This document shows, piece by piece, positions 8,801 through 61,700 of a DNA stretch of 64,000 nucleotides (the first letter of the stretch is position 1; every line of letters begins with the position of its first letter). The stretch covers positions 2,542,001 through 2,606,000 of the forward strand of contig NZ_AP012547.1 of NCBI RefSeq assembly GCF_000828635.1, read 5' to 3'. Under the pieces are notes generated by a model. It did not search any database and had not been told where the DNA came from. It was given only the letters and a program-made list of their open reading frames with translations. Made by a program: the position numbers and the translations under genes. The stretch comes from Sulfuritalea hydrogenivorans sk43H (GTDB taxonomy: Bacteria; Pseudomonadota; Gammaproteobacteria; Burkholderiales; Rhodocyclaceae).

Positions 8801-9792
8801 GCCGGCACCCCGAGCGGAATGCTCATCGTCGCCGTGGCGCCGGCGCCGACTCCCGAACTCAGTTCGAGGCGCGCCGCCGGTCCGTAGAGCGCCGCGAGGC
8901 GATCCCGCACATTGCGAACGCCGATGCCGTCACCGGGCGTCTCGCCGAAACCGAGGCCATCGTCGGCCACCGCAATCCGCAGGCGCTCGCCCTGCTTTTG
9001 CGCGGATACGGTGATGCGCCCTCCGGCCACCTTGGGCTCCAGTCCGTGGCGGATGGCGTTTTCCACCAGGGGTTGCAGCAGCATCGGCGGGAAGGCCGCG
9101 GCCAGCAGCTCGGGCACGATGTCGAAGCGGTAGTCGAGGCGATTCCCCATGCGGACCTTCAGCACTTCAAGGTAAGCCGTCAGCAGGGCCACCTCGTCGC
9201 CCAGCGTGCCGCCTTCGGCACGCGTGCGGGCCAGGCTCGAACGCAGATAACGGATCAGGGCTTCCAGCAAACTGCCGGCGAGCTTCCGGTCGGTGTCGAT
9301 CAGCGCCGCGACGTTGGCCAGCGAATTGAACAGGAAGTGCGGCTCGATCTGCGCCTGCAGCATGCGCAATTGCGCGGCAAGGCTTTGCTTCTCGGCTTCC
9401 AGCCGGGCCAGTTCGCGTGCCTGCAAATCGCTTTCGAGCTGGGCATTGCGCTGCCGCAGCCAGAAAAATCCGGCGGCGATGGAGCCGAACAGCAAGCCGA
9501 TCAGCAAGGCCTGGGTTTCGTGCGAACCGTCGGGCGAAGCGCCCAGCCCCGTCAGCAGCCGGCCCAGCGCGCCGCCGACCAGCGCCCCCGCCACCACGGC
9601 CGCGGCCACGCCGGCGCCGCGGGCCGCACCGTCCAGGGGCAGGCGTAGCACCATCTGGATCAGGGCCAGGATGCTCAAGCCGGCGCATTGCGAGAACACC
9701 AGATTGACGGCGAAGCCGCCGCCAAACCCGAGCGCGGTGAGAAACCCCGCGATCAGGGTATTGAAGACCAGGGTGGCGATCAGCGACGACAT
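8797..9792 (-). CDS. LytS-type membrane histidine kinase
   Basis: 331 residues. The N-terminal 110 residues hold four hydrophobic segments, then a short coiled coil. The His_kinase domain follows with phospho-acceptor His152 in QIEPHFLFNSL, and a HATPase domain has the N box PLVENAIRHGLEPK and ADDGLGFG. A copy of the 24-bp repeat (residues about 314-321, SSGVGAGATAT) falls exactly where kinases of this family usually carry the G-x-G-T of the last ATP-lid motif, so function is probably retained. Partner of the LytTR regulator. Confidence 0.92.
   Translation of the reverse strand: MSSLIATLVFNTLIAGFLTALGFGGGFAVNLVFSQCAGLSILALIQMVLRLPLDGAARGAGVAAAVVAGALVGGALGRLLTGLGASPDGSHETQALLIGLLFGSIAAGFFWLRQRNAQLESDLQARELARLEAEKQSLAAQLRMLQAQIEPHFLFNSLANVAALIDTDRKLAGSLLEALIRYLRSSLARTRAEGGTLGDEVALLTAYLEVLKVRMGNRLDYRFDIVPELLAAAFPPMLLQPLVENAIRHGLEPKVAGGRITVSAQKQGERLRIAVADDGLGFGETPGDGIGVRNVRDRLAALYGPAARLELSSGVGAGATATMSIPLGVPA
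8829..8852 (-). repeat. 24-bp VGAG repeat, in the LytS-type kinase
   Basis: The minus strand reads GAGTCGGCGCCGGCG, CC, ACGGCGA. In frame it encodes V-G-A-G-A-T-A near the C-terminus of the kinase, in sense orientation. Confidence 0.85.
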
Positions 9793-9799
9793 CGGCGGA

Positions 9800-10108
9800 T
9801 TATTCCACGCTCTTGCCGGCCATCAGTTGCCGGACTTTCCGCTCCTCCCACTCGGCGCCCAGCCAGCGGCCGCGCGCAAAGGTGGCGAAGGCATGCAGTG
9901 TCAGCCATACCCCCCAGCCCAACAGCGGCCAGTAGAACCACAGACGCTCGGGCGAGGCGATCAGGTTGATCGCGGCAAGGCCGGAGTTGATCACCGCGAA
10001 CACCACGAGATGCTTGTAGAAGTTGCGCAGGCCATGCACCTGGCGTCGGGCATCGCGTTCGGCGACGGACAGATTCGGATCATCGATGAAACGGGAATGG
10101 CAGGCCAT
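9800..10108 (-). CDS. Small 2TM-domain membrane protein
   Basis: 102-residue protein with a charged N-terminal helix (SVAERDARRQVHGLRNFYKHL) followed by two hydrophobic segments (LVVFAVINSGLAAINLI and LWFYWPLLGWGVWLTLHAFA) and a basic/acidic tail. This is the layout of the 2TM family often fused or adjacent to LytS-type kinases. AAGGAG seven bases before ATG 10108 fixes the start. It lies 7 bases upstream of the kinase and is probably first in a 2TM-kinase-LytTR operon, where it may modulate the kinase. Confidence 0.85.
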   Translation of the reverse strand: MACHSRFIDDPNLSVAERDARRQVHGLRNFYKHLVVFAVINSGLAAINLIASPERLWFYWPLLGWGVWLTLHAFATFARGRWLGAEWEERKVRQLMAGKSVE

Positions 10109-10176
10109 GATGTTCTCCTTGAAGGATTGCCCGCTCGCACGGGATGGCCGCAGTCTCGGAAAAACCGGCCCGCGTC

Positions 10177-10227
10177 GCCAGCCGGATCCGACGGCTGGCC
10201 GGATTCGCGGCGTGAATTGCCGCCGCG
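10177..10227 (-). terminator. Tandem hairpins after the methyltransferase gene (possible terminator)
   Basis: Two perfect stem-loops sit just downstream of the methyltransferase stop on the minus strand: CGCGGCG/CGCCGCG (10206-10227, 8-base loop) and GCCAGCCG/CGGCTGGC (10177-10199, 7-base loop). No T-run directly follows; the nearest run of five T on that strand is about 15 bases on. Intrinsic termination is therefore uncertain. Confidence 0.4.
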
Positions 10228-10245
10228 AACGATGAACCGCGGCGG

Positions 10246-10803
10246 CTATTGCGGCAGCAGCGGATCGATGCGTCGCGTTGCGCACAGGCGCTGCACCACG
10301 GCCGGTCGCGGCGCGGCGACTTCCCCTTGTTCGAACGCCACCACGACCAGGCGCCGCCGCACCACGTCGAGCAGTTCGCCGGGGCGCAGCAGAAACGCCG
10401 GATTGGAAGGCTTGCCGAAGCGCTCGTTGCCGACCATGAAGGTTTCGTAGATCAGCACGCCATTGACCTCCAGCGCATTGAGCAGCAGCGGCAGCAGCGG
10501 CCGATACAGGTAGTTGGTAACGACAATGCCGTCGAAGGCACGGCCGTGATACGGCCACGGACCGCCTTCGAGGTCCGCCTCCCGCGTGGCGATGCCGGGC
10601 GCCCTGGCCGAAATTTCCGCCAGCGACCCGGCATCGCGATCGACCGCTTCCACCCGGTAGCCGTGCCCGGCCAGCAGCAGCGAATGCCGCCCCCCACCGC
10701 ATGCCAGATCGAGCACCGAGCCGCCCGCCGCGATCAGCGGCATGAAGCGCTCAACCCAATGCGAGGTCATTTCGCTCATATGTTGTGTCATGTCGGGTAT
10801 CAT
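10246..10803 (-). CDS. Class I SAM-dependent methyltransferase
   Basis: 185 residues with motif I VLDLACGGGRHS (SAM binding), motif II acidic residue in VEAVDRD and post-I region IVVTNYLYRPLLPLL. The sequence resembles the short TehB-like or generic Methyltransf_11/25 proteins; the substrate cannot be told from sequence. GGAG seven bases upstream supports ATG 10803. It is divergent from the cyclase-hemerythrin gene across a 44-bp spacer. Confidence 0.8.
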   Translation of the reverse strand: MIPDMTQHMSEMTSHWVERFMPLIAAGGSVLDLACGGGRHSLLLAGHGYRVEAVDRDAGSLAEISARAPGIATREADLEGGPWPYHGRAFDGIVVTNYLYRPLLPLLLNALEVNGVLIYETFMVGNERFGKPSNPAFLLRPGELLDVVRRRLVVVAFEQGEVAAPRPAVVQRLCATRRIDPLLPQ

Positions 10804-10847
10804 TTTGACTCCAAATCAAGGCACAGGCCATCAGGGCTCGACACTTC

Positions 10848-12188
10848 ATGCCCGTGACACCGCGCACGCAGGCTGGCAACCCACAGGACAATCCCGATGC
10901 CCTGCGCGAACGGCTGACTACGACAACCGAAGCCTACGGCCGCTTCGTGCCGCGCGAATTCCTCAACCTGCTGGGCATCGAAGACATCCGCAAAGTGGAA
11001 GTCGGGCAGCAGGTCGAACGCAAGATGACGGTCCTGTTCGCCGACATCCGCAACTTCACCTCGCTGTCGGAGTCGATGAGCCCGCAGGAGAACTTCAACT
11101 TCCTCAACTCCTATCTGATCCAGATGGAGCCGATCATCACCGCTCATGGCGGCTTCATCGACAAGTACATCGGCGATGCCATCATGGCGCTGTTTCCCGA
11201 ATCGCCGGATGCCGCCTTGCGCTGCAGCCTGGCAATGCTGCAACGGCTCGAAGAATACAACGACGGCCGCCAGCGCGCCGGTTATCGTCCGATCAAGATC
11301 GGCATCGGCATCAACACCGGCATCGTCATCCTCGGCACCATCGGCGGCGCGGCGCGCATGGACGGCACGGTGATCGGCGACGCGGTGAACCTCGCGGCGC
11401 GGCTCGAACGCCTGACCAAGGAATACCGGGTATCGATCCTGATCAGCGAATACACCCTGTACTGCCTCGACGAACCCAGCCAGTGGTCGATCCGCTTTCT
11501 CGACCGCACCCACGTACGCGGCAAGCAGGACAACCAATCGGTGTATGAAGTCTTCAACGGCGACCCCGCGCCATTGCGGCGGGCCAAGGAAGAGACGCTG
11601 AAGACCTTTGAACTGGCGCTGGCCTACTATCACCTCGACGACATCCTCACCTCGCGCGAGCGGCTGATTGCCTGCCTTGCCATCGCGCCCGACGACGACG
11701 CCGCGCGCGTCTATCTCGAGCGCTGCGAAAATCCCGTCGGAGGGCTGGGCAATCGGCAGGCCGAACTGACCTCCAGCTGGCGCGAGGAATATTCATTCGG
11801 CCATGCGGCAGTGGATGCCGCGCACAAGAACCTGCTGGCCGACATGAACGGACTGGCCCGCGCGGTGAATGTCGGCGCATGGGACCTGACACCGCCGCTG
11901 CTGGCACAGATACAGTTCGCCGCCGCCAACGATTTCATGATCGAGGAAGAGCTCATGGTGGCGGACGGCTATCCCTTCCTCGACCTGCATGTACGACAGC
12001 ATCAGCGCTTTTTCGAATACTTCGGCGAGTTGCGCCGCGAGATCGAGCGCGGCGAGGAAAATCGCGTCTACCTGGCCTTCCGCGTCAAGCGCTTGCTGAC
12101 CGACTGGCTGGTCAACCACATCCTCAACGCAGATCGCCATTACGGGCACTATCTGCACAGCAAGCAGAGAAACCCGGTTCATTTGTAA
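10848..12188 (+). CDS. Class III nucleotide cyclase with C-terminal hemerythrin domain
   Basis: 446 residues. Cyclase domain about 55-235: metal-binding Asp66 (VLFADIRNFT) and Asp110 (FIDKYIGDAIMALF), and Asn181/Arg185 in VNLAARLE. Lys59 before TVLF fits an adenylate cyclase. After a linker with TPR-like character comes a bacteriohemerythrin domain (about 310-435) with His326, Glu366, His381, His385, His424 and Asp429. The ligand expected as His in the HFxxE motif is Asp362 (DFMIE), so the di-iron site is altered. It suggests cyclase output controlled by O2, NO or iron, but the sensor may be impaired. No strong ribosome binding site; start uncertain by a few codons. Confidence 0.88.
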   Translation: MPVTPRTQAGNPQDNPDALRERLTTTTEAYGRFVPREFLNLLGIEDIRKVEVGQQVERKMTVLFADIRNFTSLSESMSPQENFNFLNSYLIQMEPIITAHGGFIDKYIGDAIMALFPESPDAALRCSLAMLQRLEEYNDGRQRAGYRPIKIGIGINTGIVILGTIGGAARMDGTVIGDAVNLAARLERLTKEYRVSILISEYTLYCLDEPSQWSIRFLDRTHVRGKQDNQSVYEVFNGDPAPLRRAKEETLKTFELALAYYHLDDILTSRERLIACLAIAPDDDAARVYLERCENPVGGLGNRQAELTSSWREEYSFGHAAVDAAHKNLLADMNGLARAVNVGAWDLTPPLLAQIQFAAANDFMIEEELMVADGYPFLDLHVRQHQRFFEYFGELRREIERGEENRVYLAFRVKRLLTDWLVNHILNADRHYGHYLHSKQRNPVHL

Positions 12189-12287
12189 GCCACTCCGACA
12201 GGCACGATCGACGGGAAGGTGCTATGCTTTTGTTGCAGCGCACAATCCTTTCTGACCTCCTGACCAACGACGCTGCGGAGCGCCGCC

Positions 12288-14978: not shown

Positions 14979-15566
14979 ATGGCGAAAGTCGGCGCCGGCG
15001 CCACGGCGCGCTGCCCCTGGTGCGGCGAGGATCCGCTCTACGTTGCCTATCACGACAAGGAATGGGGCGTGCCCTGCCACGACGAACGCACGCTGTTCGA
15101 GTTCCTCATCCTCGAAGGCGCGCAGGCCGGGCTGTCCTGGATCACCATCCTCAGGAAGCGCGAAAACTACCGCCGCGCCTTCGACAACTTCGACCCGGTG
15201 AAGATTGCCCGCTACGGCGAACGTGACGTCGCACGCCTGCTGGGCGACGCCGGCATCGTCCGCAACCGGCTCAAGATCGCGGCCAGCATCGGCAATGCCC
15301 GCGCCACGCTGGAGCTTTACGAACAGGGCCTGAGCCTCGATCAGTTGTTGTGGGCTTTCGTCGACGGCCGCCCGCGCATCAACCGCTGGCGCACGATGGA
15401 CCAGATTCCGGCCATCACGCCGCAAGCCGAAGCCCTGTCCAAGGAACTCAAGCGCCGCGGCTTCCGCTTCATCGGGCCGACCGTGGTCTACGCCCACATG
15501 CAGGCCACCGGCATGGTCAACGACCATCTGGTTTCCTGTCCGCGCCACGCCGATCTCGGTGCCTGA
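14979..15566 (+). CDS. tag: DNA-3-methyladenine glycosylase I
   Basis: 195-residue helix-hairpin-helix glycosylase that excises 3-methyladenine. The family signatures YHDKEWGVP, AGLSWITIL and KRRGFRFIGPT are intact. Zinc ligands correspond to Cys12, His25 and a C-terminal His/Cys pair (NDHLVSC). In E. coli Tag, as recalled, the first two are Cys4 and His17, so this protein has exactly eight extra residues, KVGAGATA, encoded by a copy of the 24-bp repeat right after Met-Ala. ATG 14979 directly abuts the stop of the acetyltransferase gene. Confidence 0.93.
   Translation: MAKVGAGATARCPWCGEDPLYVAYHDKEWGVPCHDERTLFEFLILEGAQAGLSWITILRKRENYRRAFDNFDPVKIARYGERDVARLLGDAGIVRNRLKIAASIGNARATLELYEQGLSLDQLLWAFVDGRPRINRWRTMDQIPAITPQAEALSKELKRRGFRFIGPTVVYAHMQATGMVNDHLVSCPRHADLGA
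14986..15009 (+). repeat. 24-bp VGAG repeat, at the N-terminus of tag
   Basis: Reads AAGTCGGCGCCGGCG, CC, ACGGCGC. It encodes V-G-A-G-A-T-A in frame and accounts for an 8-residue length excess over E. coli Tag. Confidence 0.9.
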
Positions 15567-15631
15567 GCGCTTCCGGATTATGGTTACAATACAAGCACTT
15601 TCCGTTCACGGAGCTTCTGCCCGCGCCGCGT

Positions 15632-17989: not shown

Positions 17990-18041
17990 CGCTTCGCATT
18001 TCCAGTCGAACAATCCTCGCCGACGAACACGGAAACCGACA

Positions 18042-19577
18042 ATGGAACTCTCATCCCTGCTGAGCCATCACGCACGCTACCGTCCGCATGCGACGGCGGT
18101 GGTCTTCGGACAGCAACGGCTGGATTACCGCGACTTCAACGCCCGCGTCGACCGCGTGGCGCACCTGCTGCTCGGGCTGGGCGTAAAAAAAACCGGGCGC
18201 GTCGCCACCCTGCTGCCCAACACGCTGGAACTGCTGGAAACCTACTGGGCCTGCGCCCGGATCGGCGCCGTCGCCGTGCCGCTTTCGCCGCTGCTGACCG
18301 GGGTCGGCCTCTCCAGCCTGATCAACGATGCGGGCGCGGTCTGCCTCGTCACGCAGAACAGCCTGCTGCCGGTGGTCGAAGCCGTGCTGCCACGGCTGTC
18401 GACGCTGGCGCCGCCGCGCATCCTGCTGATCGACGGCGACCAGCCGCCCTGGGGCAGCTACGCCGCGCTGGCCGCCGCCGCGCCGGAGGACGAGCCGCCA
18501 GCCGCCGGCGTCACGGGCGACGACCTGATCAACATCATGTACACCTCGGGCACCACCGGCCTGCCCAAGGGCATCATGCACAGCCATCGCGTGCGCGCCA
18601 TGTACGCGCTGCTGCTGGGCGCCGCCTGGCGCATGACGCCGGAATCGGTGGTGCTGCACAGCGGCGCCATCGTCTTCAACGGCGCCTTCGTCACGCTGAT
18701 GCCGGCCTTCCACCTCGGCGCCACCTACATCCTGCTGCGCCAGTTCGACGCCGCGGAAATGCTGGCCACCATCGCCCGGGAAAAGGTCACACACATCATG
18801 GTGGTGCCGGCGCAGATCATCGCCCTGCTCGACTCGCCGGATTTTGATCCCGCAAAACTCGCCTCGCTGCAGATGATTCTTTCACTCGGCGCGCCGCTGC
18901 CGCAGCCGCGCAAGGACCAGCTGAACCAGCTGCTGCCCGGACGCTTCCACGAACTCTACGGCCTCACCGAAGGCTTCCTCACCATCCTCGACCGGACCGA
19001 TGCGGTGAAAAAGGCCGGCTCCGTCGGCTGCCCGCCGCCCTTCAGCGAAGTGCGCATCGTCGATGAACAGGGCCGCGACCTGCCGCCGGGCCAGGCCGGT
19101 GAAATCGTCGGCCGCGGGCCCTTCGTCATGCAGGGCTACTGGGGCAAGCCGCAGCTCACGGCGGAGGCCCTGCGCGACGGCTGGATCTTCAGCGGCGACA
19201 TCGGTTACCTTGACGACGAGGGCTACCTCTACCTGGTCGATCGCAAGAAGGACATGATCGACTCGGGCGGAGTGAAGGTCTATCCGCGCGACATCGAGGA
19301 GATCGCCGCGCGCCACCCGGCGATAGCCGAGGTCGCCGTGTTCGGCATTCCCCACGAAACCTGGGGCGAAACGCCCGTCGCCGCCGTGGTATTGAGAGTC
19401 GGCGCTGGCGCTACGGCGGACGAACTGCGCGACTGGATCAACGAACGCGTCGCGGCGCGCTACCAGCGCGTCCAGACAGTGATCATCAAACCGGAATTCC
19501 CGCGCAACGCCGCAGGCAAGACGCTGAAGCGCGACATGCGCGAGCCGTACTGGGCCGGACGCGCTAGCCGGATCTGA
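18042..19577 (+). CDS. AMP-forming acyl-CoA synthetase
   Basis: 511 residues of the ANL superfamily. AMP-binding P-loop YTSGTTGLPKG (about 168-178), ELYGLTEG, A8 hinge YLVDRKKDMIDSGGVKVYP and the catalytic C-terminal Lys in PRNAAGKTLKRD. That segment fits the PX4GK pattern acetylated by Pat enzymes, and a Pat-type gene lies 3 kb upstream. The acyl substrate cannot be predicted; the size fits medium- or long-chain ligases. Residues about 452-459 (RVGAGATADEL) are a copy of the 24-bp repeat in a surface segment of variable sequence. It overlaps the convergent MFS gene by 14 bases. Confidence 0.9.
   Translation: MELSSLLSHHARYRPHATAVVFGQQRLDYRDFNARVDRVAHLLLGLGVKKTGRVATLLPNTLELLETYWACARIGAVAVPLSPLLTGVGLSSLINDAGAVCLVTQNSLLPVVEAVLPRLSTLAPPRILLIDGDQPPWGSYAALAAAAPEDEPPAAGVTGDDLINIMYTSGTTGLPKGIMHSHRVRAMYALLLGAAWRMTPESVVLHSGAIVFNGAFVTLMPAFHLGATYILLRQFDAAEMLATIAREKVTHIMVVPAQIIALLDSPDFDPAKLASLQMILSLGAPLPQPRKDQLNQLLPGRFHELYGLTEGFLTILDRTDAVKKAGSVGCPPPFSEVRIVDEQGRDLPPGQAGEIVGRGPFVMQGYWGKPQLTAEALRDGWIFSGDIGYLDDEGYLYLVDRKKDMIDSGGVKVYPRDIEEIAARHPAIAEVAVFGIPHETWGETPVAAVVLRVGAGATADELRDWINERVAARYQRVQTVIIKPEFPRNAAGKTLKRDMREPYWAGRASRI
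19396..19419 (+). repeat. 24-bp VGAG repeat, in the acyl-CoA synthetase
   Basis: Reads GAGTCGGCGCTGGCG, CT, ACGGCGG. Sense orientation, encoding V-G-A-G-A-T-A. Confidence 0.85.
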
Positions 19578-20799
19578 GCGCGGGCCGACCAACGCGGCGG
19601 CCCATGGCCAGCACCGTCAGCACCGCCAGCACCTGCAGCAGCGCCACGCCCGGCAGCACGCCATCGCGGCCGCCGGCATCGAGCAGCATGCCGAAAGCCA
19701 GCGGCCCCAGGGCCAGGCCGACATCCAGACCGGAATAGACGAAGCCATAAACGCGGCCGAAGGCCGGCGACGCATTGCCGCCGGCCAGCGAATCCGTGGC
19801 AACCCGGCGCACCAGCAGGTCGCGCGAGGGACCGGCGAGGCCGACGCCGATGCCGATGCCGGCCATCAGCGGAATCACGCTCCAGGCCGCGGGAAGCCCG
19901 CTGGCCAGCACCGCGGCGAAAACCGCGGCGGCGATCAGTGCGCCGCCGACGGTACGGTCATGTGCCTGCACCCGCACGGCAACGAAACCCCCGATCACCA
20001 TGCCCGCCGCCGACCCCAGCAAATAGCCGGTCAGCGCGGCCACCGCGGTCGCCGGCGACAAACCGTAGATCCCGCCCAGCACCGGCGCGGAAAAACTCTG
20101 CAAGCCGCCGAAGGCCGCCGTGATCAGCAGGAAGAACATGAAGGCGAGCCAGATCGCCGGAGCGCCGAGAAAGCCGAAGGTCGCCCCCGCCGCCGTACCG
20201 CCAGCGCCGACTCTTGCCACATCGTCGTCCAGCAGCGGCTTTGCCATCTGCAGCGCGGCGACGGAACACAAGGCCACCAGCGCGGCGGCAATGCCGGCCC
20301 CGCGCCATCCTGCCCAGGCCAGTGCCATGCCCGAAATCGCCGCGCCGATCGCCCAGCCCAGGTTGCCCGAGAGCCCATGCACCGAAAACGCATAGCCCAG
20401 GCGCGCTGGTGACACCTTCTTGTTCAGCAGGGAGAAGTCCGCCGGATGGAACACCGAATTGCCAATGCCGGCGAGCGCCACCGCCAGCAACAGCATCGAA
20501 TAGTTGGCCGCCGCCGAAAGCGCCAGGCCGGAGGCCGCCAGCAGGCTGACGCCGGCCATCAGTACCCGGCGCGCGCCGTAGCGATCGACCACGATCCCGG
20601 CGAAGGCCTGGCCGACGCCGGAAATGGTGAAAAACACGGTCATCAGGAAGCCGGCCTCGGTATAGCCGAAACCGAAGTCCGGCATCAGCAGCGGAAACAG
20701 CGGCGGTAACAAAAGATGGAACAGATGCGAGGTGGCGTGGGCGACGCCGACCAGCGCAATCACTGCCGCATCCGCACGCACGGGTGAATTGGGGATCAT
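19564..20799 (-). CDS. MFS transporter (fosmidomycin-resistance-like)
   Basis: 411 residues with twelve predicted membrane segments. The MFS signature between TM2 and TM3 reads GIVVDRYGARRVLM, and GNSVFHPADFSLL resembles the Fsr-type exporters. The substrate is unknown. The central cytoplasmic loop between the two six-helix halves contains the peptide RVGAGGTAAG (residues about 196-204), encoded by the 24-bp repeat, a position that tolerates insertions. It is transcribed toward the acyl-CoA synthetase. Confidence 0.85.
   Translation of the reverse strand: MIPNSPVRADAAVIALVGVAHATSHLFHLLLPPLFPLLMPDFGFGYTEAGFLMTVFFTISGVGQAFAGIVVDRYGARRVLMAGVSLLAASGLALSAAANYSMLLLAVALAGIGNSVFHPADFSLLNKKVSPARLGYAFSVHGLSGNLGWAIGAAISGMALAWAGWRGAGIAAALVALCSVAALQMAKPLLDDDVARVGAGGTAAGATFGFLGAPAIWLAFMFFLLITAAFGGLQSFSAPVLGGIYGLSPATAVAALTGYLLGSAAGMVIGGFVAVRVQAHDRTVGGALIAAAVFAAVLASGLPAAWSVIPLMAGIGIGVGLAGPSRDLLVRRVATDSLAGGNASPAFGRVYGFVYSGLDVGLALGPLAFGMLLDAGGRDGVLPGVALLQVLAVLTVLAMGRRVGRPALRSG
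20190..20213 (-). repeat. 24-bp VGAG repeat, in the MFS central loop
   Basis: The minus strand reads GAGTCGGCGCTGGCG, GT, ACGGCGG. Sense orientation, encoding V-G-A-G-G-T-A. Confidence 0.9.
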
Positions 20800-20931
20800 C
20801 GGTCGATGCTAACCGAAATCCGCGACTGAAATATCTGCTGACACTCCTTAACAGACGGTGCGCAAATCCCTGCCTATCGTGCAGCTCATGGGCAGCGCCG
20901 GTGCGCCACCCGACAACCCGAGGAGATGAAC

Positions 20932-21603: not shown

Positions 21604-21610
21604 GTGCCGG

Positions 21611-22221: not shown

Positions 22222-22239
22222 GGCGGGCTTCAGCGAAGT

Positions 22240-22277
22240 TATAACATACGTTATACTACGCTGAAGCCACCCCGATT

Positions 22278-22281
<4 letters not shown>
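22240..22281 (-). promoter_or_regulatory. Promoter and palindromic operator of the AbrB-Doc operon
   Basis: On the minus strand TTGAAA (22276-22281) and TAGTAT (22253-22258) are 17 bases apart. A perfect inverted repeat TATAAC-ATAC-GTTATA (22240-22255) covers the transcription start region, a typical place for repressor binding by the antitoxin. The -35 hexamer overlaps the clpB stop codon. Confidence 0.7.
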
Positions 22282-24872
<2,591 letters not shown>

Positions 24873-24905
24873 GGGATAAGCCTCGGAAATTTGTCATTGG
24901 ACCGA

Positions 24906-24933: not shown

Positions 24934-24949
24934 CCACGCCCAAAGTGAT

Positions 24950-31449: not shown

Positions 31450-31971
31450 TCAGCGATTCCAGCGCCCTGCGGCGTGATCGTCGCTTTCGCGGGCATCCAC
31501 CCAGTGTCCGCCTTCCGGAGTTTCTTCCTTCTTCCAGAACGGCGCCCGCGTCTTCAGGTAATCCATGATGAATTCGCAGGCGGCAAAGGCCTCGCCACGA
31601 TGGGCCGAGGCCACCGCGACGAAAACGATGCGATCGCCCGGCAGCAACCGGCCGACGCGGTGGATCACCCGCACGCCATAAATATTCCAGCGCCCGCGCG
31701 CCTCGGTGACGATGGCGTCGAGCGCCTTTTCGGTCATGCCGGAATAGTGTTCGAGGGTCATCGCCTGCACCGCCGCCGTCTCGCCAGCGCCGTCCGCAGG
31801 GGATACCGCCCCCGGCTGCGCCGGAGGCATAACTGTTGCAGCCTTGTCGGCTCGCACCAACCCGACGAAACTGGCTACCGCCCCGACATCGTCGCGCCCG
31901 GCAGAGAGCGCTGCGATCTCCGCGCCCGCATCAAAGTCGGCTTCCTGCACGCTGACCGACATGTCAGCCAC
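31450..31971 (-). CDS. moaE: Molybdopterin synthase catalytic subunit MoaE
   Basis: 173 residues, about 20-25 longer than usual. It transfers sulfur from MoaD thiocarboxylate to precursor Z. Family landmarks: ASFVGLVR, LEHYSGMTEKAL, RVIHRVGRLLPGD, FVAVASAHRGEAF, and a Lys-rich end LKTRAPFWKKE with the active-site lysines. The extra residues (about 43-68, KAATVMPPAQPGAVSPADGAGETA) fall between VGLVR and the LEHY strand, where other MoaE proteins have a short loop, and contain a degenerate VGAG repeat (DGAGETA). Last gene of mobB-moeA-moaD-moaE; its start overlaps moaD by 8 bases. Confidence 0.93.
   Translation of the reverse strand: MADMSVSVQEADFDAGAEIAALSAGRDDVGAVASFVGLVRADKAATVMPPAQPGAVSPADGAGETAAVQAMTLEHYSGMTEKALDAIVTEARGRWNIYGVRVIHRVGRLLPGDRIVFVAVASAHRGEAFAACEFIMDYLKTRAPFWKKEETPEGGHWVDARESDDHAAGRWNR
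31773..31796 (-). repeat. Degenerate 24-bp VGAG repeat, in moaE
   Basis: The minus strand reads GGACGGCGCTGGCG, AG, ACGGCGG. It keeps the 11-base GGCGCTGGCG core and the ACGGCG end, with T to A in the first GTC codon, encoding D-G-A-G-E-T-A in the same frame as the other copies. Confidence 0.6.
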
Positions 31972-37368: not shown

Positions 37369-37392
37369 GAGTCGGTGCTGGCGGTACGGCGA
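37369..37392 (+). repeat. 24-bp VGAG repeat, intergenic, left of the HEPN remnant
   Basis: Reads GAGTCGGTGCTGGCG, GT, ACGGCGA, one mismatch (T) from consensus. Not in a gene. Base composition falls sharply directly to its right. Confidence 0.9.
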
Positions 37393-37951: not shown

Positions 37952-37975
37952 AAGTCGGCGCTGGCGCCACGGCGG
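37952..37975 (+). repeat. 24-bp VGAG repeat, intergenic, right of the HEPN remnant
   Basis: Reads AAGTCGGCGCTGGCG, CC, ACGGCGG. Same orientation as the copy at 37369. Confidence 0.9.
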
Positions 37976-43661: not shown

Positions 43662-43978
43662 GATACTTGCTGCCGCCGATAGTCGGCGATCGCCGCGGCG
43701 AGTTCCTGGCGCGCGTCGCCGGTCCTGCCCCGAAACAGGCGGGCAACCCCCTCCATGGCCGCCGTCAGGTCATCCTCGATCTGCGCCGCGCTGCGCGTTT
43801 CTTCCTGCACCACATGGACGAATTCGATGCCGCGCTGGATCAGGTTCCGCAATTGATCGGCATCGATCTCGGTGCCGGCGGACAGCAGCAAGGCGCCGTC
43901 GGGGCGGCGCACGGCTTGTGCCAGCCGCATGCCCGGCTTGAGACCCAGGGTCGCAACGCAAACCGTACGTTCAGTCAA
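43658..43978 (-). CDS. Small protein resembling the N-terminal module of HD-GYP proteins
   Basis: 106 residues starting at TTG; AAGGAG six bases upstream makes this start convincing and excludes upstream ATGs. TLGLKPGMRLAQAVRRPDGALLLSAGTEIDADQLRNLIQRGIEFVHV matches the L-x-PGM-x-LA...G-x-LL-x-xG module that precedes many HD-GYP phosphodiesterase domains. Here it is free-standing and translationally coupled to the HDOD gene, as if an HDOD/HD regulator had been split. Confidence 0.75.
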   Translation of the reverse strand: MTERTVCVATLGLKPGMRLAQAVRRPDGALLLSAGTEIDADQLRNLIQRGIEFVHVVQEETRSAAQIEDDLTAAMEGVARLFRGRTGDARQELAAAIADYRRQQVS

Positions 43979-44053
43979 GATCAACTCCTTCGATGGAAGC
44001 CGTTGGGCGGGAGTGTACCCGAGCCTGCCCGCCGCGCGGGCTCGGGGCAAAGA

Positions 44054-44842
44054 CTAGGGCAGTTCCTCCACCTTCAGCAGGAGTCGGCGCTGGCGGGACG
44101 CCGATTGCGCGCCGATGCTGGCGATTCCGGCCGAATTGCCGCTTTGCTCGCCGGCCGAGCCGCCCAGCTCCAGCCATTCGCCCAAGCGGCCGCTGACCGT
44201 GGTCAGCAAGCGCTGCACATTCACCGAACCCGGCAGTGGTCCGGGCGTATCGTCGCGCGGGCTGATTTCCAGCGTCACGCGATCGCCGGAAAGGCGCGGC
44301 ACGGCGACAAAACCGGTGCCCAGATCGCGCTGCACGAAGCTCTCCGACACCACCACGCCCGCCGGCGTCAGCACCACCTGTCGCAGCGGCAGCAGCATCG
44401 ATTCGCCGACCAGGATCGCGGCACGTCCGCCGTCGATGGTCTGCACCTGCTGCGTGGTGTCGCGCCGGCTGCGGCTGTCGGACTGATGGAGGTGTCCGCG
44501 GCCGCTGATCGCCGTACCGCCAGCGCCGACTTCCACTCGACCGCTTATCCCCGCACCGCGATCCGTGCCGACGTCGGCGCCCTCCTGCCGCACGCTGATC
44601 ATCAACCGCCGCACGGGGATGTCGAGCGAGGCGACGAGTGCCTTGATGTCGGCCTGATTGCGGCTCGACGCACGCAGGAACAGCTTGTCGTTCATGCCGC
44701 TGAGCGCCCCGCCCGGTTCGATGAAGGGCATCAGTTGCGGCAGCAACTGCTCCGCGCTTCGGTGGCGCAGGTCGATGATCTCCAGCGCCTGGGCCCAGGC
44801 CACGGAACTGATCATGAGAAAAGCAATAAAGAACCGCTGCAT
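44054..44842 (-). CDS. Exported secretin-like protein (short, no clear multimerisation domain)
   Basis: 262 residues with signal peptide MQRFFIAFLMISSVAWAQA. LEIIDLRHRSAEQLLPQLMPFIEPGG and NQADIKALVASLDIPVRRLMISVRQE resemble the N-domain repeats of GspD/PilQ secretins. The C-terminal half (GFVAVPRLSGDRVTLEISPRDD, VNVQRLLTTVSGRLGEWLELGG) resembles the strand-rich secretin core but is too short for a full gate. The copy of the 24-bp repeat at 104-111 (VEVGAGGTAIS) lies between the two parts, and a second, antisense and diverged copy overlaps its 3' end. Confidence 0.7.
   Translation of the reverse strand: MQRFFIAFLMISSVAWAQALEIIDLRHRSAEQLLPQLMPFIEPGGALSGMNDKLFLRASSRNQADIKALVASLDIPVRRLMISVRQEGADVGTDRGAGISGRVEVGAGGTAISGRGHLHQSDSRSRRDTTQQVQTIDGGRAAILVGESMLLPLRQVVLTPAGVVVSESFVQRDLGTGFVAVPRLSGDRVTLEISPRDDTPGPLPGSVNVQRLLTTVSGRLGEWLELGGSAGEQSGNSAGIASIGAQSASRQRRLLLKVEELP
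44081..44104 (+). repeat. Diverged 24-bp VGAG repeat, antisense in the secretin-like gene
   Basis: Reads GAGTCGGCGCTGGCG, GG, ACGCCGA; one base of the right end differs. It is the only clear genic copy on the strand opposite the gene, near its 3' end. Confidence 0.75.
44509..44532 (-). repeat. 24-bp VGAG repeat, in the secretin-like gene
   Basis: The minus strand reads AAGTCGGCGCTGGCG, GT, ACGGCGA. Sense orientation, V-G-A-G-G-T-A. Confidence 0.9.
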
Positions 44843-44860
44843 GTGCATGTCCCGTGACCC

Positions 44861-44866: not shown

Positions 44867-44898
44867 TGCTCTCTTCACCGTCCAGAGAAAGCCCGCAA

Positions 44899-52653
<7,755 letters not shown>

Positions 52654-52657
<4 letters not shown>

Positions 52658-54801: not shown

Positions 54802-54803
54802 CC

Positions 54804-55355
54804 ATGGCCAGGATCCTGATTGCCGATGACGAACGGGTGGTGTTGTTCACGCTGGCCGAAGGCCTGCGCGAAGCCGGTTTCGACGTCATCGAGGCGCACG
54901 ACGGCTTGCAGGCGCTGGAGCTGTGCCGAAGCGAAGCGCCCGATCTGGCCCTGCTCGACATCCGCATGCCCGGCCTCGACGGACTGGAACTGGCGCGCCG
55001 CCTGCGTGACGAGACAAGCGTCCCCTTCCTGTTCTTTTCCGCCTATGGCGACGAGGCCATGGTGCGCCGCGCGGTGGAGATCGGCGCGCTGGGCTATCTG
55101 ATCAAGCCGCTGCTGGTGTCATCCATCGTACCGACGGTACGCACCGCGCTGGCCCGATCCAAGGACATCAGCGGCCTGCAGGGTGCCCTGGAGAGCAATC
55201 GCACCATTGCCACCGCGGTCGGCATGCTGATGCGCAGCGAAGGCATCGACCGGCAGGCCGCCTTCGAACGCCTGCGCCAGCGGGCGCGCACCCAGCGCCG
55301 CAAACTGGAGGAACTGGCACGCACGATCATCGACCAGAAACAGACACCGGCATAA
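54804..55355 (+). CDS. ANTAR-domain response regulator (RNA-binding antiterminator)
   Basis: 183 residues. Receiver domain with DDE at 8-10, phospho-Asp52 in LALLDIRMPG and Lys in YLIKPL. A C-terminal ANTAR domain (about 125-178) with IATAVGMLMRSEGIDRQAAFERLRQRAR has the three-helix pattern of NasR/AmiR/EutV, which bind paired hairpins in nascent RNA and prevent termination. ATG 54804 is preferred because it begins directly with the receiver strand; ATG 54774 would overlap the kinase. The likely phosphodonors are the two HisKA_2 kinases upstream, and the 337-base leader downstream is a candidate target. Confidence 0.92.
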   Translation: MARILIADDERVVLFTLAEGLREAGFDVIEAHDGLQALELCRSEAPDLALLDIRMPGLDGLELARRLRDETSVPFLFFSAYGDEAMVRRAVEIGALGYLIKPLLVSSIVPTVRTALARSKDISGLQGALESNRTIATAVGMLMRSEGIDRQAAFERLRQRARTQRRKLEELARTIIDQKQTPA

Positions 55356-55692
55356 AACCATAATTTGATTGCGGGATTCCTCTCCCGCGACCGCCCATCC
55401 ACAAATTGATGCACGGTATCAAACAATTGATCTTGCAAGTATTTGTCGACGTGCTAGGATGGTTTTCTGTCGAAAGACATAATACAAGCCGCCCCACGCC
55501 GGGCAGCTTGCAGCCGGGGCCCAAAAAACCGCCTCGCTTATGAAATCCGCGGTCACGCCGCAGCATGCGGCATGACAAATGGAACATGGAGCGAAGCATG
55601 CAAGGAGTCCCCGACCTCACTCTCTATCCTGAGTCGGTCACAAACCTCCCGCCACCCGCCGAGAGGCTGGCCGGCTGCATTTCGGGCAACCA
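55356..55692 (+). promoter_or_regulatory. 337-bp spacer with candidate promoter, TTGAT half-sites and a structured leader
   Basis: No gene is seen. TTGCAA (55433-55438) and an extended -10 TGCTAGGAT (TAGGAT 55455-55460) are 16 bases apart. Just upstream three TTGAT half-sites alternate in orientation (55406-55410, 55418-55422, 55427-55431), spaced 7 and 4. Their spacing does not fit an FNR box. Transcription from here would give a leader of about 225 bases containing a perfect hairpin (55557-55571) and several GC-rich imperfect stems, before the GGDEF/EAL gene. Confidence 0.5.
55557..55571 (+). other. Hairpin in the GGDEF/EAL leader
   Basis: GCCGCA-GCA-TGCGGC is a perfect six-base stem with a three-base loop, about 120 bases before the start codon. 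Not followed by a T-run, so not a terminator by itself. Confidence 0.45.
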
Positions 55693-58600
55693 ATGAGCCT
55701 GGCCCCGCGCCCGCTCCGCGGCAGCCGCTTCCTTGGCGAATGGCTGTTCCTGCTTGCCGCCCTGACGGCATTCGGCGGCTATATCGGTTATTCGCAATAC
55801 CAGGATTACCTCCAGATCGAAATCCAGGAGCGCGAGCGCCTGACGACTGAAGCCGCCGTGATCGAGAAGAACCTGGTGCCGCAGCTGCATTCGGCCAACC
55901 ATGCGCTGGAAACCATCCGCGACGACCTTTCGCACTGGCGGATGGAGAAAGACGGGCAGTGGCGAACCAATCGGCGGCTGCAAGTCTTCGCCGACATCCT
56001 GCCCGGCATGCGGGTCCTGCTGGTGGTCGACGCGGACGGCCGGATAACGGCTTCCAACAATGCAACCCTGGTCGGGGCCAGCCTTGCCCACCGGGAATGG
56101 TTCCAGCTCGCCGCCAGGAACAATGCTCCGCAAACGCTTTACCTGATCCCGCCGATCAAATCCCTGATCGATACCTATGTCATGGCGCTGGCGCGCTCGG
56201 TGGCCCGGCCGAACGGAGAATTCGGCGGGGTCGTTTATGCCTCCTTCGATCCGGATTTCGCCCGGACCCAGCTCGACTCGGTGCTCTACACCCCCGACGC
56301 ATGGGCTGCCCTCGCCCATGGCGACGGCAAGCTGTTCATGATGGCGCCGGAAAAGAAACACCTGGCCGGCACCGATCTGGCGACGCCCGGCAGCCTGTTT
56401 ACCCGCCATCGCGACAGCGGCCAAAAGACGAATGTGTACACCGATCGTGTCGCCGCGACGGGCGAACAACGCATGATTGCCCAGCGCACGATCCACCCCG
56501 ACGACTTGTTCATGGACAAACCGCTGGTGGTTGCCGTTTCGCGCGATCCACGAACCATTTTTGCGTCCTGGCAGCGGGCCACCACCCTGCACGCCCTGTT
56601 GTTCGGGATAGTGGCGGTGGTGGCCGTCCTCAGCCTGGGCTTCTATCAGCGGCGGCAGCGCGGCCTCCAGGACATTGCCGACCGCCACGAACAGGCGCTG
56701 CAAGCCAGCGCTGACCGCCTGAACGAAGCGCAGCGCATCGCCCAGGTCGGCAACTGGACACTGGACCTGGTCAGCGGCGAACTGACCTGGTCGGATCAGG
56801 TATTCCGTTTGTTCGAGATCGATCCGGCCCGGTTCGGTGCCACCTACGACGCCTTCCTCAATGCCATCCATCCCGACGATCGCGAAGCAGTGCATCAGGC
56901 CTATGCCGAATCGCTCGTAACCCGGCAGCCATACGAGGTCACCCACCGGCTGCGCATGAATGACGGGCGCATCAAGTGGGTGCATGAGAAATGCCTGTCC
57001 GAATTCGACGCGACAGGCAAGCCCTTGCGTTCCCTGGGCACGGTACAGGACATCACCGACGGCAAGCTGGCCGAGATCGAACTGCGCATCGCCGCGGCGG
57101 CCTTCGACTCGCAGGAAGCCATGATGGTCACCGATGCCAACAGCGTGATCCTGCGGGTCAATCGGGCCTTCGTCCAGATCACCGGCTATACGCCCGCGGA
57201 AGCCGTGGGCCAGACACCCCGCCTGCTCCAGTCAGGACGCCATGACAAGACGTTCTATCGCGAAATGTGGGAAGCCATCAACCGAACCGGCACCTGGCAG
57301 GGTGAAGTCTGGGACCGGCGCAAGGATGGCACGGTATATCCGAAATGGCTCACCATCTCGGCGGTAAAGGATGACAGCGGCACCGTGACCCATTACATCG
57401 GTTCGCACTACGACATCACCGAACGCAAGATCGCCGAAGAAAAGATCAGGCAACTGGCCTTCTTCGACCAGTTGACCGGCCTGCCCAACCGGACACTCCT
57501 CATGGATCGCCTGCGGCAGACCATGGCCGCCAGCTCGCGCAGCGGCGGCCATGGCGCCCTGCTGTTCATCGATCTGGACAACTTCAAGATGCTCAACGAC
57601 ACGCTGGGCCACGACAAGGGCGACCTGCTGCTGAAACAGGTTGCCCAGCGCCTGAAGCTGTGCGTGCGGGAGGGTGACACGGTCGCCCACCTGAGCGGCG
57701 ACGAATTCGTCGTGGTGCTGGCCGGGCTGGACGCCGACAGCGCCGACGCGGCGGCGGATATCGAGGCCATCGTGGAAAAGATCCTTGCCTCGCTCAACCA
57801 GGACTACCTGCTCGCCGATGTCGTTCATCACAGCACCGCGAGCATCGGCATCACGCTGTTCATGGGCGATCCGACCAGCATCGACGAACTGATGAAGCAG
57901 GCCGATCTGGCCATGTACAAGTCGAAGGAAGCCGGACGCAACACATGGCATTTCTTCGACCCTGGCATGGAATCCGCCGTAAAGGAACGTGCGGCGCTGG
58001 AAGACGATCTGCGGCTGGCCTTGCAGGAACAGCAGTTCGTGCTCCACTTCCAGGCCCAGGTGGTGGGAGAGCGCCTGACCGGCGCCGAAGTCCTGGTGCG
58101 CTGGCAGCACCCGCAACGCGGCATGGTGCCGCCGGGCGAATTCATTCCCCTGGCCGAAGACACCGGCCTGATCCTGCCGCTCGGCGAATGGGTGCTCGAC
58201 GCCGCCTGCCGCCAGCTGGCGCGCTGGGCCACCCAACCGGAACTGGCCCATCTCACGCTCGCGGTCAACGTCAGCGCGCACCAGTTCGGCCAGGTCGATT
58301 TTGTCGACCAGGTGCTGGCCGTGCTGAAGAACACCGGTGCCAATCCGCGGTTCTTGAAGCTGGAACTGACCGAAAGCCTGCTGGTCGACAACGTGCAGGA
58401 CATCATCGGAAAAATGTTCGCGCTGAAGGCCAGGGGCGTGGGCTTCGCGCTGGACGACTTCGGCACCGGCTATTCCTCGCTGTCCTACCTGAAGCGGCTG
58501 CCGCTCGACCAGTTGAAGATCGACCAGTCCTTTGTGCGCGACATCCTGGTTGACCCCAACGATGCGGCAATTGCCCGCACCATCGTGGCGCTGGCCGAAA

Positions 58601-58758
58601 GCCTCGGGCTCGGCGTGATCGCCGAGGGCGTGGAAACGGAAACACAACGCGAGTTCCTGGCCAAATCCGGCTGTCATGCCTTCCAGGGCTACCTCTACAG
58701 CAAGCCCGTGCCGCTCGACAAATTCGAGGAGCTCATGACCGCCGAGGCAGTGGCGTGA
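55693..58758 (+). CDS. Membrane Cache-PAS-PAS-GGDEF-EAL protein
   Basis: 1021 residues. TM1 about 13-32, Cache-like sensor (about 40-290), TM2 about 300-318, two PAS domains (about 335-585), GGDEF domain with SGDEF at the active site (about 669) and EAL domain whose signature reads EVLVRW (about 799). The substrate-binding NVSAHQF, ELTES, DDFGTG, LKIDQSFV and EGVETE motifs are intact, so phosphodiesterase activity is likely. SGDEF in place of GGDEF is often still active or GTP-binding. Its second PAS closely matches one in the next protein. The stop overlaps the next start (GTGA). Confidence 0.93.
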   Translation: MSLAPRPLRGSRFLGEWLFLLAALTAFGGYIGYSQYQDYLQIEIQERERLTTEAAVIEKNLVPQLHSANHALETIRDDLSHWRMEKDGQWRTNRRLQVFADILPGMRVLLVVDADGRITASNNATLVGASLAHREWFQLAARNNAPQTLYLIPPIKSLIDTYVMALARSVARPNGEFGGVVYASFDPDFARTQLDSVLYTPDAWAALAHGDGKLFMMAPEKKHLAGTDLATPGSLFTRHRDSGQKTNVYTDRVAATGEQRMIAQRTIHPDDLFMDKPLVVAVSRDPRTIFASWQRATTLHALLFGIVAVVAVLSLGFYQRRQRGLQDIADRHEQALQASADRLNEAQRIAQVGNWTLDLVSGELTWSDQVFRLFEIDPARFGATYDAFLNAIHPDDREAVHQAYAESLVTRQPYEVTHRLRMNDGRIKWVHEKCLSEFDATGKPLRSLGTVQDITDGKLAEIELRIAAAAFDSQEAMMVTDANSVILRVNRAFVQITGYTPAEAVGQTPRLLQSGRHDKTFYREMWEAINRTGTWQGEVWDRRKDGTVYPKWLTISAVKDDSGTVTHYIGSHYDITERKIAEEKIRQLAFFDQLTGLPNRTLLMDRLRQTMAASSRSGGHGALLFIDLDNFKMLNDTLGHDKGDLLLKQVAQRLKLCVREGDTVAHLSGDEFVVVLAGLDADSADAAADIEAIVEKILASLNQDYLLADVVHHSTASIGITLFMGDPTSIDELMKQADLAMYKSKEAGRNTWHFFDPGMESAVKERAALEDDLRLALQEQQFVLHFQAQVVGERLTGAEVLVRWQHPQRGMVPPGEFIPLAEDTGLILPLGEWVLDAACRQLARWATQPELAHLTLAVNVSAHQFGQVDFVDQVLAVLKNTGANPRFLKLELTESLLVDNVQDIIGKMFALKARGVGFALDDFGTGYSSLSYLKRLPLDQLKIDQSFVRDILVDPNDAAIARTIVALAESLGLGVIAEGVETETQREFLAKSGCHAFQGYLYSKPVPLDKFEELMTAEAVA

Positions 58759-61700
58759 CTGAACAGCCGACAGTCGGCGCCGGCGATACGGCGACAGTCC
58801 GAACGGGTATGCACTTCGCCAGGCAGGACGGCAAGTTCCAGCCCAATCGGCGGCATCTGCTCGTGGCGCTGCCCGCCTTGCTGGTGCTGGTCACCCTGGC
58901 AATCGTCAAGATCTATGTGCCGCAAATCGAGCGCGATGCCTACACCAGCCTGGAGATCGCCGCCCGGCTCAAGAGCCAGCAGGTGGAGGCCTGGCTTGCC
59001 GAACGACACAACGACGGCAGGGTGCTGGCATCCGACACGGAACTGATCGAGCGTGTCGCCGCCATTCAGCACCGCCATGATCCGGCAATGAAGGAGTTGA
59101 TCCTCAAACGGCTGATGATAGTCAGCAGCGGCTACGGCTATTCCACCGCCGTGGTGCTTGACCCGACCGGGAAGGAATTGCTGACGGCAGGTGGCGCCCA
59201 CGAAATTTCGGAACAAACCAGGGCGCTGCTGCCAAAGGCCTTTGCCACCGACGAGATTGCCCGCAGCGCCTTCTATCTGGATGCCAACGACGGCCAGGCG
59301 GCGCTCAACTTCGTTGTCCCCTTGCAGCACATTGTCGCCGGCAAGCGCCAGGCGGTCGGCGCGCTGGTGCTGCATGCCGAACCCGGCGAGTCGATGTTCC
59401 CGATGATCCTGGGCTGGCCGTCGGCCAGCCGCAGCGGCGAAACCCTGCTGGTGAAGGGCGTCGGCGACTCGGTCATCTATCTCAACCAGCTCCGGCACAC
59501 CAGCGCCCCGGCGATGACGATCAGGCAGAACCGGGCCGACCCCACGCTGCCCTCCGCCCAGGCGGTTCATACCGGCAAGGCCGGCGCATCGCGCGGCAAG
59601 GATTATCGCGGCGTGGACGTACTGGCGGTTTATCGCCCGATCGCCGGCACCAGCTGGCACCTGATCGCCAAGATCGACTACGACGAAATCATGGAACCGC
59701 TGTGGCGACTGGTGATCTGGGTCGGCCTGGTGGCGCTGGCCGCGGCGTTGGCCATCGGCTTGATGCTGCGCCGGCTCTGGTCGCAACAGCAAAGCATGCG
59801 GGAACTGGCCGCACAGGCCAAACTGACGGAAAGCCTGCGCCAACGGGAAGAGCGTTTCCGCGCCATCACGGAAACGGCCTACGATGCGATCGTCACTGCG
59901 GATACCGGGGGCAACATCACCAGCTGGAACGCTTCGGCCGCTCGGATATTCGGCTTTGACAAGGCCGAGATCATCGGCCAGCCGCTGACGCGGATCATTC
60001 CGCCGCGCTTCCAGCAGGCCGCCATGGCCGGCTTTCAGCGCCTGATGAACGGCGACCCGGACCACCTCGATGGCGGCGTCGTGGAATTGACCGGACAGCG
60101 CCGGGACGGCAGCGAGTTTCTCCTCGAACGCTCGGTGGCGCTGTGGCAAACCGAGGATGGCCGCTTCTTCACCTGCACCATGCGCGACATCACCGAGCGC
60201 AAGAAGGCGGACGAAGCGCTGCGCATCGCCGCTGCCGCCTTCGAGTCGCACGAAGGCATTGTGGTGACCGATGCCGACGACGTGATCCTGCGGATCAACC
60301 AGGCCTTTACCACCATCACCGGCTACCCCGAAGCGGAAGCCGTCGGCAGGAGAATGAACTTCCTCAAGTCGGATCGCCATGAACCGGATTTCTACGCGGA
60401 GATGTGGCAGGAAATCCTGGCGCACGAAACCTGGCAGGGCGAAATCTGGAACCGGAACAGGGACGGCACGATCCATCCCCACTGGCTGACCATCTCGGCG
60501 GTCAGGGATGGCGATGGTCGAATCACCCATTATGTCGGCGCCTATACCGACATCACCGAGCGCAAGGAAGCCCTGCAGGCGCTGGAAGCCAGCCGGAATT
60601 TCAACGAGCAGATCGTCTCCGCGTCGCCGATCGGCATCCTGACTTATGACGCAACGGGGCAGTGCCTGACGGCAAATGCCAATGCCGCCGATCAGTTGGG
60701 AGCAACGCGCGAGCAATTGCTCGGACAGGACTTCCGGAAAATCGAGTCATGGAAGAGTTCCGGCCTTCTGGCCTGTGCCGAGAAGGCGCTGGCCACCGAC
60801 GAGCATGCGCAGATCGAGGCCCATTTCGTCACCAGTTTCGGCAAGGAAATATGGCAGCACGCGATTTTTTCCCGCTTCTCGGCGAACGGGCGCATGAACC
60901 TCCTGCTGATGATCACCGACATTTCCCGACGCAAGCAGCAGGAAGAAAAAACCCGCCAGCTTCTGGCGCAAAACGAAACCATCCTCGGCAACGCCCTGGT
61001 CGGCATCGTCTATCTCAAGCAACGCCGCATCGTTTCCTGCAACCGCCGGATCGAGGAACTGTTTCAATACGAACCGGGCGAACTGCTCGGCCAATCGAGC
61101 GAGCTGTTCTACGACTCCCAGGAAACCTATGATCGACTAGGAAGAATCGCCTACGACGCGGTGGCGGAAGGCCAGAACTACAGTACCGAGGTCATGTTGC
61201 GGCACAAGGACGGCAGCCTGTTCTGGGGCGCGCTGAGCGGCCGCGCCATCGATCCCGCGCATCCGAACGACGGCAGCATCTGGGTATACGCCGACATTTC
61301 CGAACGCCGGCGCGCGGAGGAGGAAACCGGCAAGCTGCGGCAGGCGGTGGAACAGAGCCAGGTTTCGATCGTCATCACCAACCGCTACGGCGTCATCGAG
61401 TACGTGAACCCGAGCTTCACCCGGATTACCGGCTACACCCGTGAGGAAACGGTCGGCCGGACCCCGAGCATTGTGAAATCCGCGGAGACACCCCGTGCAA
61501 TACATGAAGACCTCTGGAACACCATACTTGCCGGCAGGATCTGGCGCGGCATCCTGCGCAACCGCTGCAAGAACGGCAGTCTGATCTGGGAAGAAACATC
61601 GATCTCGCCGATCTTCAACGAAGACGGCGAAATCAGCCATTTCGTCGCGGTCAAGGAGGATGTGACCGAGCGCAAGCGGATCGAACGGCAGCTCGAAGAG

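Follow-up and report, generated by a model that had tools for sequence, protein, structure and literature searches.

A dispersed 24-bp repeat in Sulfuritalea and related genera is a probable DNA-uptake-sequence-like self-tag

A 64,000-nucleotide stretch of the Sulfuritalea hydrogenivorans sk43H genome (contig NZ_AP012547.1, positions 2,542,001 to 2,606,000; hereafter the window, with positions counted from its first letter) carries a dispersed repeat of about 24 bp, which lies both inside and between genes and is often translated as the peptide VGAGxTA. Thirteen good copies were observed, twelve with at most three mismatches to the 24-mer and a degenerate one. Genes were called by a purpose-made codon-usage gene caller, and under these calls eight copies are read on the sense strand as VGAGxTA: VGAGATA near the C-terminus of a LytS-type histidine kinase (gene 8797-9792; copy 8829-8852, minus strand), at residues 4-10 of Tag (14986-15009, plus) and within the C-terminal domain match of an acyl-CoA ligase (19396-19419, plus); VGAGGTA within the MFS_1 match of a transporter (20190-20213, minus) and in ClpB, between the matches to the AAA lid and the second AAA domain (23285-23308, minus); VGAGDTA ahead of the first PAS match of a sensor kinase (51564-51587, plus) and at residues 7-13 of a 1603-aa hybrid sensor kinase (58771-58794, plus); and, from the degenerate copy, DGAGETA in MoaE (31773-31796, minus). 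The gene at 43667-44857 (plus) holds one sense copy in another frame, read as ESALAGRR (44081-44104, plus), and one antisense copy (44509-44532, minus). A second antisense copy lies within the gene at 4288-5544 (plus; copy 4738-4761, minus, one mismatch), and the copies at 37369-37392 and 37952-37975 (both plus) are intergenic.

The repeated word is about 23 letters long. At up to three mismatches the 24-mer matches 12 times in the window, against 0.02 matches expected from shuffled sequences, and none of 100 shuffles reached 12. A preliminary description, made from the letters of the window, had listed eleven main positions, and the 24-mer is present at all of them; its list was complete except for the copy at 4738. 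Of the two degenerate copies that it proposed, the one at 31773 is genuine and departs from the 21-bp core at one letter; the match near 5619 belongs to the background, with five mismatches in 21 letters, equal to many background matches. Its host genes were supported by Pfam for the LytS-type histidine kinase, Tag, the acyl-CoA ligase, the MFS transporter, ClpB, the two PAS sensor kinases and MoaE, and the secretin-like host was not confirmed. A short palindromic stretch, GTGGAGCACTGCTCCAC, adjoins the weak 5619 match (window about 5540-5640). An Rfam scan of the window returned a single match at the gathering threshold, a tRNA.

The genome is one contig of 3,802,648 bases, in which the reversed pattern served as control. 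The genome-wide count, proposed in the preliminary description as a test of the repeat, was far above this control: the 21-bp core is found 727 times at up to two mismatches (364 and 363 on the two strands) against 8 for the control, and 855 times at up to three mismatches (436 forward, 419 reverse) against 57. The density is about 190 copies per Mb. The motif is asymmetric, with a consensus of about 5'-RARAGTCGGCGCTGGCG-NN-ACGGCGA-3'. In a 464-kb sample, which comprises the window and 20 stretches of 20 kb, 98 matches were found; those with zero, one, two and three mismatches number 49, 20, 13 and 16, against 0, 0, 0 and 9 for the control, such that about nine of the 98 are expected as background. 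Their spacing is Poisson-like (46 bins of 10 kb, mean 1.78, variance 1.51). Pieces of the motif make up the top-ranked overrepresented 11-mers (five or more) of this sample, and the same holds for stretches from four further high-copy genera. Four copies were folded, and their z-scores, from -1.25 to +0.64, gave no clear gain over shuffles. Two other repeats were seen in this genome. The words TTTCGCAGATT and TCCGCAGATTT form a second overrepresented family in the sample (11 and 12 occurrences against about 0.2-0.3 expected), and a 1.2-kb element at L155:14702-15900 (L numbers denote DNA stretches standing for lineages or loci) has at least six near-identical copies and is probably an insertion sequence; one copy of this element was found to be without the motif.

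Since the motif shares the high GC content of the genome and is frequently read as VGAGxTA, codon usage combined with a common peptide could in principle have produced it by chance. The reversed-pattern control is about ninety times lower at up to two mismatches, and the positions of the copies relative to genes argue in the same direction. Among the 98 sample matches, 45 are sense, 29 antisense, 22 intergenic and 2 across a gene end. The intergenic share exceeds the roughly 9.5% of bases that lie outside called genes. The sense copies divide into 32 in the VGAGxTA frame, with 11 and 2 in the other two, and the antisense copies into 20, 8 and 1. Accordingly 42 of the 74 copies inside genes fall outside the VGAGxTA frame, and an origin by chance and codon usage, refuted by these controls, is left with almost no credence. 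The same counts temper the earlier statement that nine of ten genic copies share one sense frame: the bias is real yet not absolute, with 8 of 11 genic copies in the window and 32 of 74 in the sample, and the window shows a strong local form of a bias that is weaker over the genome. Because those 42 copies are antisense or in another frame, the VGAGxTA peptide looks like a by-product of protein tolerance rather than a target of selection. Clustering at gene ends was not observed among the 74, with 8 copies within 30 amino acids of the N-terminus and 7 of the C-terminus, where about 6 are expected each.

The repeat is widespread in the genus and patchy beyond it. In what follows, G numbers denote genomes and g numbers genera. 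All 31 Sulfuritalea genomes carry at least 88 copies at up to two mismatches; the value of 88 belongs to G016, against about 200-790 in the other 30. A survey of the family (297 genomes, 68 genera) returned 37 genomes with at least 100 copies, distributed over six high-copy genera: Sulfuritalea itself (12 of 13 genomes), g43 (10 of 11), g70 (4 of 4), g88 (9 of 9), and the sole genomes surveyed of g32 and g62. A g47 genome reaches 70 copies, and the rest of the survey has 59 or fewer, many at control level and a few somewhat above it (59 against 10 for the control; 38 against 3). When 399 genomes of the order were surveyed at up to one mismatch, more than five copies were found in four alone, all of the same family. 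When copy density is placed on a tree of a neighbouring 896-aa protein, lineages empty of the motif separate the dense parts, namely the Sulfuritalea clade, a second clade and L074. Four genomes of other families (G395, G348, G601 and G608) hold three to five copies each at up to one mismatch, some of those in G395 ending in GGCA; these are possibly segments transferred from high-copy genera.

The high-copy lineages do not spell the motif identically. Per-lineage matrices have a common core, GTCGGCGCTGGCG-NN-ACGGCG, around which dialects were recognized. The dialect of S. hydrogenivorans is nnrarAGTCGGCGCtGGCGnnACGGCGa; copies in G061 often have GGTGC, those in G177 and in L053/L059 tend to end in ACGGCA, and L052 has aActCGGCGCyGGCGnGGCGGCG. 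Orthologous copies were compared across lineages by requiring the same orientation and a flank match. Pairings of opposite orientation (L050 at 1133, L059 at 750, L068 at 12698) were dropped, and two look-alike sites with three mismatches (15 and 19) were left out. Nine L052 copies have cross-lineage orthologues, five of them supported by both flanks with the same partner and the others by one flank. Motif position 18 is G in all nine and A in 21 of the 22 partners, the sole partner without A being an L050 copy. Likewise, at the five sites common to L052 and L053, the last core base is G in every L052 copy and A in every L053 copy. In the aligned flanks of these pairs, an A of L053 faces a G of L052 in 87 of 414 cases (21%), so that, for independent sites, each of the two diagnostic positions would by chance give five of five with a probability of about 4e-4. 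The ClpB site at 23285, common to L068, L041 and L098 among others, follows the same pattern, ending in A in L068 and in G in seven orthologues of four other lineages. Since orthologous sites carry each lineage's own spelling, the alignments indicate that copies have been rewritten in place, each following the dialect of its lineage, and the copies are therefore unlike dead insertions.

Several further observations concern sites shared between lineages. The L052 copies near 3089 and 4740 and the L040 copies near 886 and 2582 have flanks that are 88-93% identical, with each copy in its own dialect, which could be explained by transfer followed by rewriting, or simply by conserved genes. In the spacer after the 896-aa gene, the motif of L068 (12698) is oriented opposite to those of L065, L066, L052 and L063, which suggests an independent gain at a favoured place. 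Longer composites were also seen at orthologous sites. In L043, L048, L049, L041 and one place in our own sample, a motif start leads into TCCCGNAGG and then into a second part resembling GCGCTGGCG, and L042-L044 and one own-sample place have an inserted CACCTGGGA..CAGGTG stretch. These low-copy variants might be recombination products or a separate micro-element.

An alternative would be a mobile, copy-and-paste micro-element of about 24 bp, or the remnant of longer composites, whose insertions are filtered by what proteins tolerate. Within the genus, 23 clusters of orthologous sites contain 80 alleles with the motif at up to three mismatches (references included) and 36 without it. Twelve of the 36 are unchanged in length and 24 differ, over a range of -19 to +57 bases; among 1331 control alleles, 4% changed in length. 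The motif sites are tolerant, indel-prone places without a standard insert length. A micro-element would find some support in the spacer between GPAT and Tag, which is 19 bp shorter in six motif-less species, in the composites with motif parts described above, and in the excess of perfect copies over one-mismatch forms. At the Tag site (14986), the motif of some relatives is found in the same spacer, immediately following the stop codon upstream. Against a micro-element stand the absence of a fixed insert length, the lack of a marked hairpin in the folded copies, and the orthologous sites that are common across genera and differ by dialect, as dead insertions would not. We consider this origin quite improbable, and the class of inserted micro-elements, such as miniature inverted-repeat transposable elements or Rickettsia palindromic elements, was rejected for want of precise fixed-length insertions. 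As to whether copies are insertions or in-place conversions, a question raised in the preliminary description, the alleles point to spelling change in place without a fixed insert length, with one site compatible with insertion.

Maintenance was assessed against flanking sequence. Two window copies are widely retained at up to three mismatches, that at 4738 in 14 of 16 orthologous loci within the genus and that at 8829 in 12 of 12 species (reference counted in both). Over six window sites in normal-copy species (34 ungapped alleles), the identity of the motif is 0.90, against 0.83 and 0.78 in the flanks and 0.60 at the two free positions. In the low-copy L036 and L064 (7 alleles) it is 0.74, against 0.78 and 0.77 in the flanks, and 301 kb of the low-copy G016 held no perfect copy. 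By site, the motif exceeds its flanks at 4 of the 6. A second ortholog region (L155) provided just 5 sites with at least four species. Conservation of this kind, together with even, genome-wide spacing on both strands, would also be expected of sites that are bound by a chromosome-organising or nucleoid protein and kept individually by selection. Segregation signals are strand-polarised, however, unlike the equal total strand counts found here, and both the decay within the genus (G016) and the dialect change at every compared L052 site would require selection per site. Such a protein site is thus an improbable explanation.

Foreign DNA provides a further view of the repeat. One of the 20 sample stretches, L151, has no copy and carries genes for RepA, a TraD/TraG-type coupling protein, a UmuC-type polymerase and an OLD-type nuclease. 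Three further stretches of the same region, picked after the first was seen to be empty, also have none and carry genes for F-type TraN, TraC, TraG and a TraI_2 protein as well as type I restriction genes. Together these four 20-kb stretches (L402, L403, L151 and L404; 1.90-1.99 Mb) contain no copy in 80 kb, where about 14 are expected; the three later stretches alone contain none in 60 kb, against about 10.7 expected (Poisson P about 2e-5). Their GC content is 55-57%, against 62-66% in the other 19 sample stretches. The large low-GC island at about 1.89-2.01 Mb encodes HipA and NERD proteins as well.

Taken together, the repeat is probably a DNA-uptake-sequence-like self-tag, to which we assign a probability of roughly 0.72. 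The support is at the level of sequence and consists of abundance, dialects, in-place rewriting, decay in some species and one empty island. The preliminary description had offered three roles, and a DNA-uptake signal fits best because of the high copy number on both strands, the dialects, the in-place maintenance, the decay and the absence from the island; a mobile micro-element fits less well, and a site for chromosome organisation or for a nucleoid protein would account less readily for the dialects and for the lack of copies in foreign DNA. For the underlying process we infer three steps, namely binding, uptake bias and recombination. A minor pilin of the type IV pilus would bind the motif on extracellular DNA during natural transformation, and motif-bearing fragments would then be taken up and recombined preferentially. 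Homologous replacement could repair damaged copies, spread new ones in tolerant sites such as spacers, linkers and termini, and track changes in receptor specificity, the last of which would produce the dialects. VGAGxTA would then be a by-product of the frame best tolerated by proteins.

The genes that such a process would need were sought in the genomes. S. hydrogenivorans has ComEC, DprA and type IV pilin-like proteins, and a 150-aa protein of its pilin cluster matches the ComP_DUS family (PF16732) at 43.9 bits, against a cut-off of 27.3. A FimT-like pilin in the same cluster gave no lead. When the PilE-like pilin was compared by sequence with solved structures, the best match was geopilin, and ComP was not among the 19 matches listed. 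ComEC, ComP_DUS and DprA were each tried as a gene tracking copy number, and none follows the repeat.

A number of observations weigh against an uptake tag. Its function is deduced from sequence. ComEC is present in 30 of 30 genomes and ComP_DUS pilins in 40 of 40, including relatives with few or no copies; both are as frequent in low-copy as in high-copy genomes, so that neither follows copy number or singles out a receptor. DprA is above cut-off in 13 of 14 genomes, the exception being the high-copy G004, a draft assembly with a weak match, in which a gap is possible. The low-copy G016 retains ComEC, DprA and a ComP_DUS pilin. At 2 of the 6 window sites conservation of the motif does not exceed that of its flanks. 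In the L155 region the 11 low-copy pairs all come from a single site, where the low-copy G021 keeps the motif at 0.93, which argues against uniform decay in low-copy species. The frequent length differences of absent alleles (24 of 36) make gain by insertion possible at some sites. Seven other integrase-like loci, counted without the two that scored best, are mildly poorer in copies, with 18 in 140 kb against about 25 expected (one of these loci is supported by two sub-threshold family matches, and a further integrase match lies at 3.668 Mb, inside L160), so that depletion in foreign DNA is shown for one island. Inverted pairs are not prominent, making up 2 of the 4 copy pairs closer than 500 bp in the sample. 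The motif also occurs on IMG/VR viral contigs, of which at least 120 stretches (L161-L280) have an exact 22-bp match and a further density of about 0.44 copies per 10 kb; these may be either phage or host-flank DNA. Finally, an uptake tag predicts natural transformation in these bacteria, and no report of competence in this group was found in a limited literature search.

According to PMC12616744, uptake motifs are known from Neisseriaceae and Pasteurellaceae alone. If the self-tag is real, this would be a third family with uptake sequences; as two families are known, it is hard to judge whether such sequences are a rare accident or a recurring outcome of transformation. A limited literature search on uptake sequences and on Rhodocyclales/Betaproteobacteria found no prior report of the motif. 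Six high-copy genera, their dialects, low-copy sister species and an empty island would form a comparative system for studying how tags arise, switch spelling and shape proteins. The motif also gives a flag for acquired DNA that requires nothing but sequence.

Other dispersed repeats are instructive by comparison. HIP1 of cyanobacteria is an 8-bp palindrome, very abundant in coding and non-coding DNA. The present motif is similarly abundant in both, but it is long and asymmetric. Repetitive extragenic palindromic (REP) elements with their REP-associated tyrosine transposases (RAYT) and the Rickettsia palindromic elements are dispersed, short, palindromic and inserted, those of Rickettsia inside reading frames, whereas the motif here has no marked fold or fixed insert length. 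The REP/RAYT class, palindromic and mainly extragenic, was rejected, as 74 of 98 copies lie in genes and folds are not clearly above shuffles.

The closest parallels are the two known uptake systems. The uptake signal sequence (USS) of Pasteurellaceae is discontinuous, up to 32 nt long, and has types by subclade (PMC12616744); a long discontinuous motif with types by lineage is likewise found here. The sequences are unrelated, however. In the USS, AT-rich regions follow downstream of a 9-nt core, whereas in the present motif an A/purine-rich part precedes the GC-rich core. Inverted pairs are called common for the USS and for the DNA uptake sequence (DUS) of Neisseriaceae (PMC12616744). The DUS is continuous, with 10-13 nt; the motif here has nineteen fixed bases in its 21-bp core and a purine-rich lead, two free bases splitting the core, and 35.5 bits in our own sample. 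The neisserial TTCAGACGGC has no full match here, and the DUS 10-mer GCCGTCTGAA (PMC2397512) is not contained in the consensus; AGACGGC alone is shared, recurring in part of the G177 and L053/L059 copies as part of one dialect. A fuller account would add Rhodocyclales as the third group with an uptake-sequence system. Its tag would be unusually long and rich in information, and a minor pilin of the ComP_DUS family would read it, changes in whose specificity would have rewritten hundreds of copies in place. The tag might even share an ancestor with the neisserial DUS, at which the common AGACGGC end of one dialect would hint; as a whole we regard this account as doubtful. DUS dialects follow clades in Neisseriaceae (PMC3630211); new DUS copies are reported to stand opposite gaps or unrelated sequence in related genomes, and recently acquired DNA to lack them (PMC2397512). 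In the same way, the repeat of Sulfuritalea is a high-copy short motif with clade dialects, gap-facing copies and absence from one acquired island, in genomes that encode a ComP_DUS-family pilin too.

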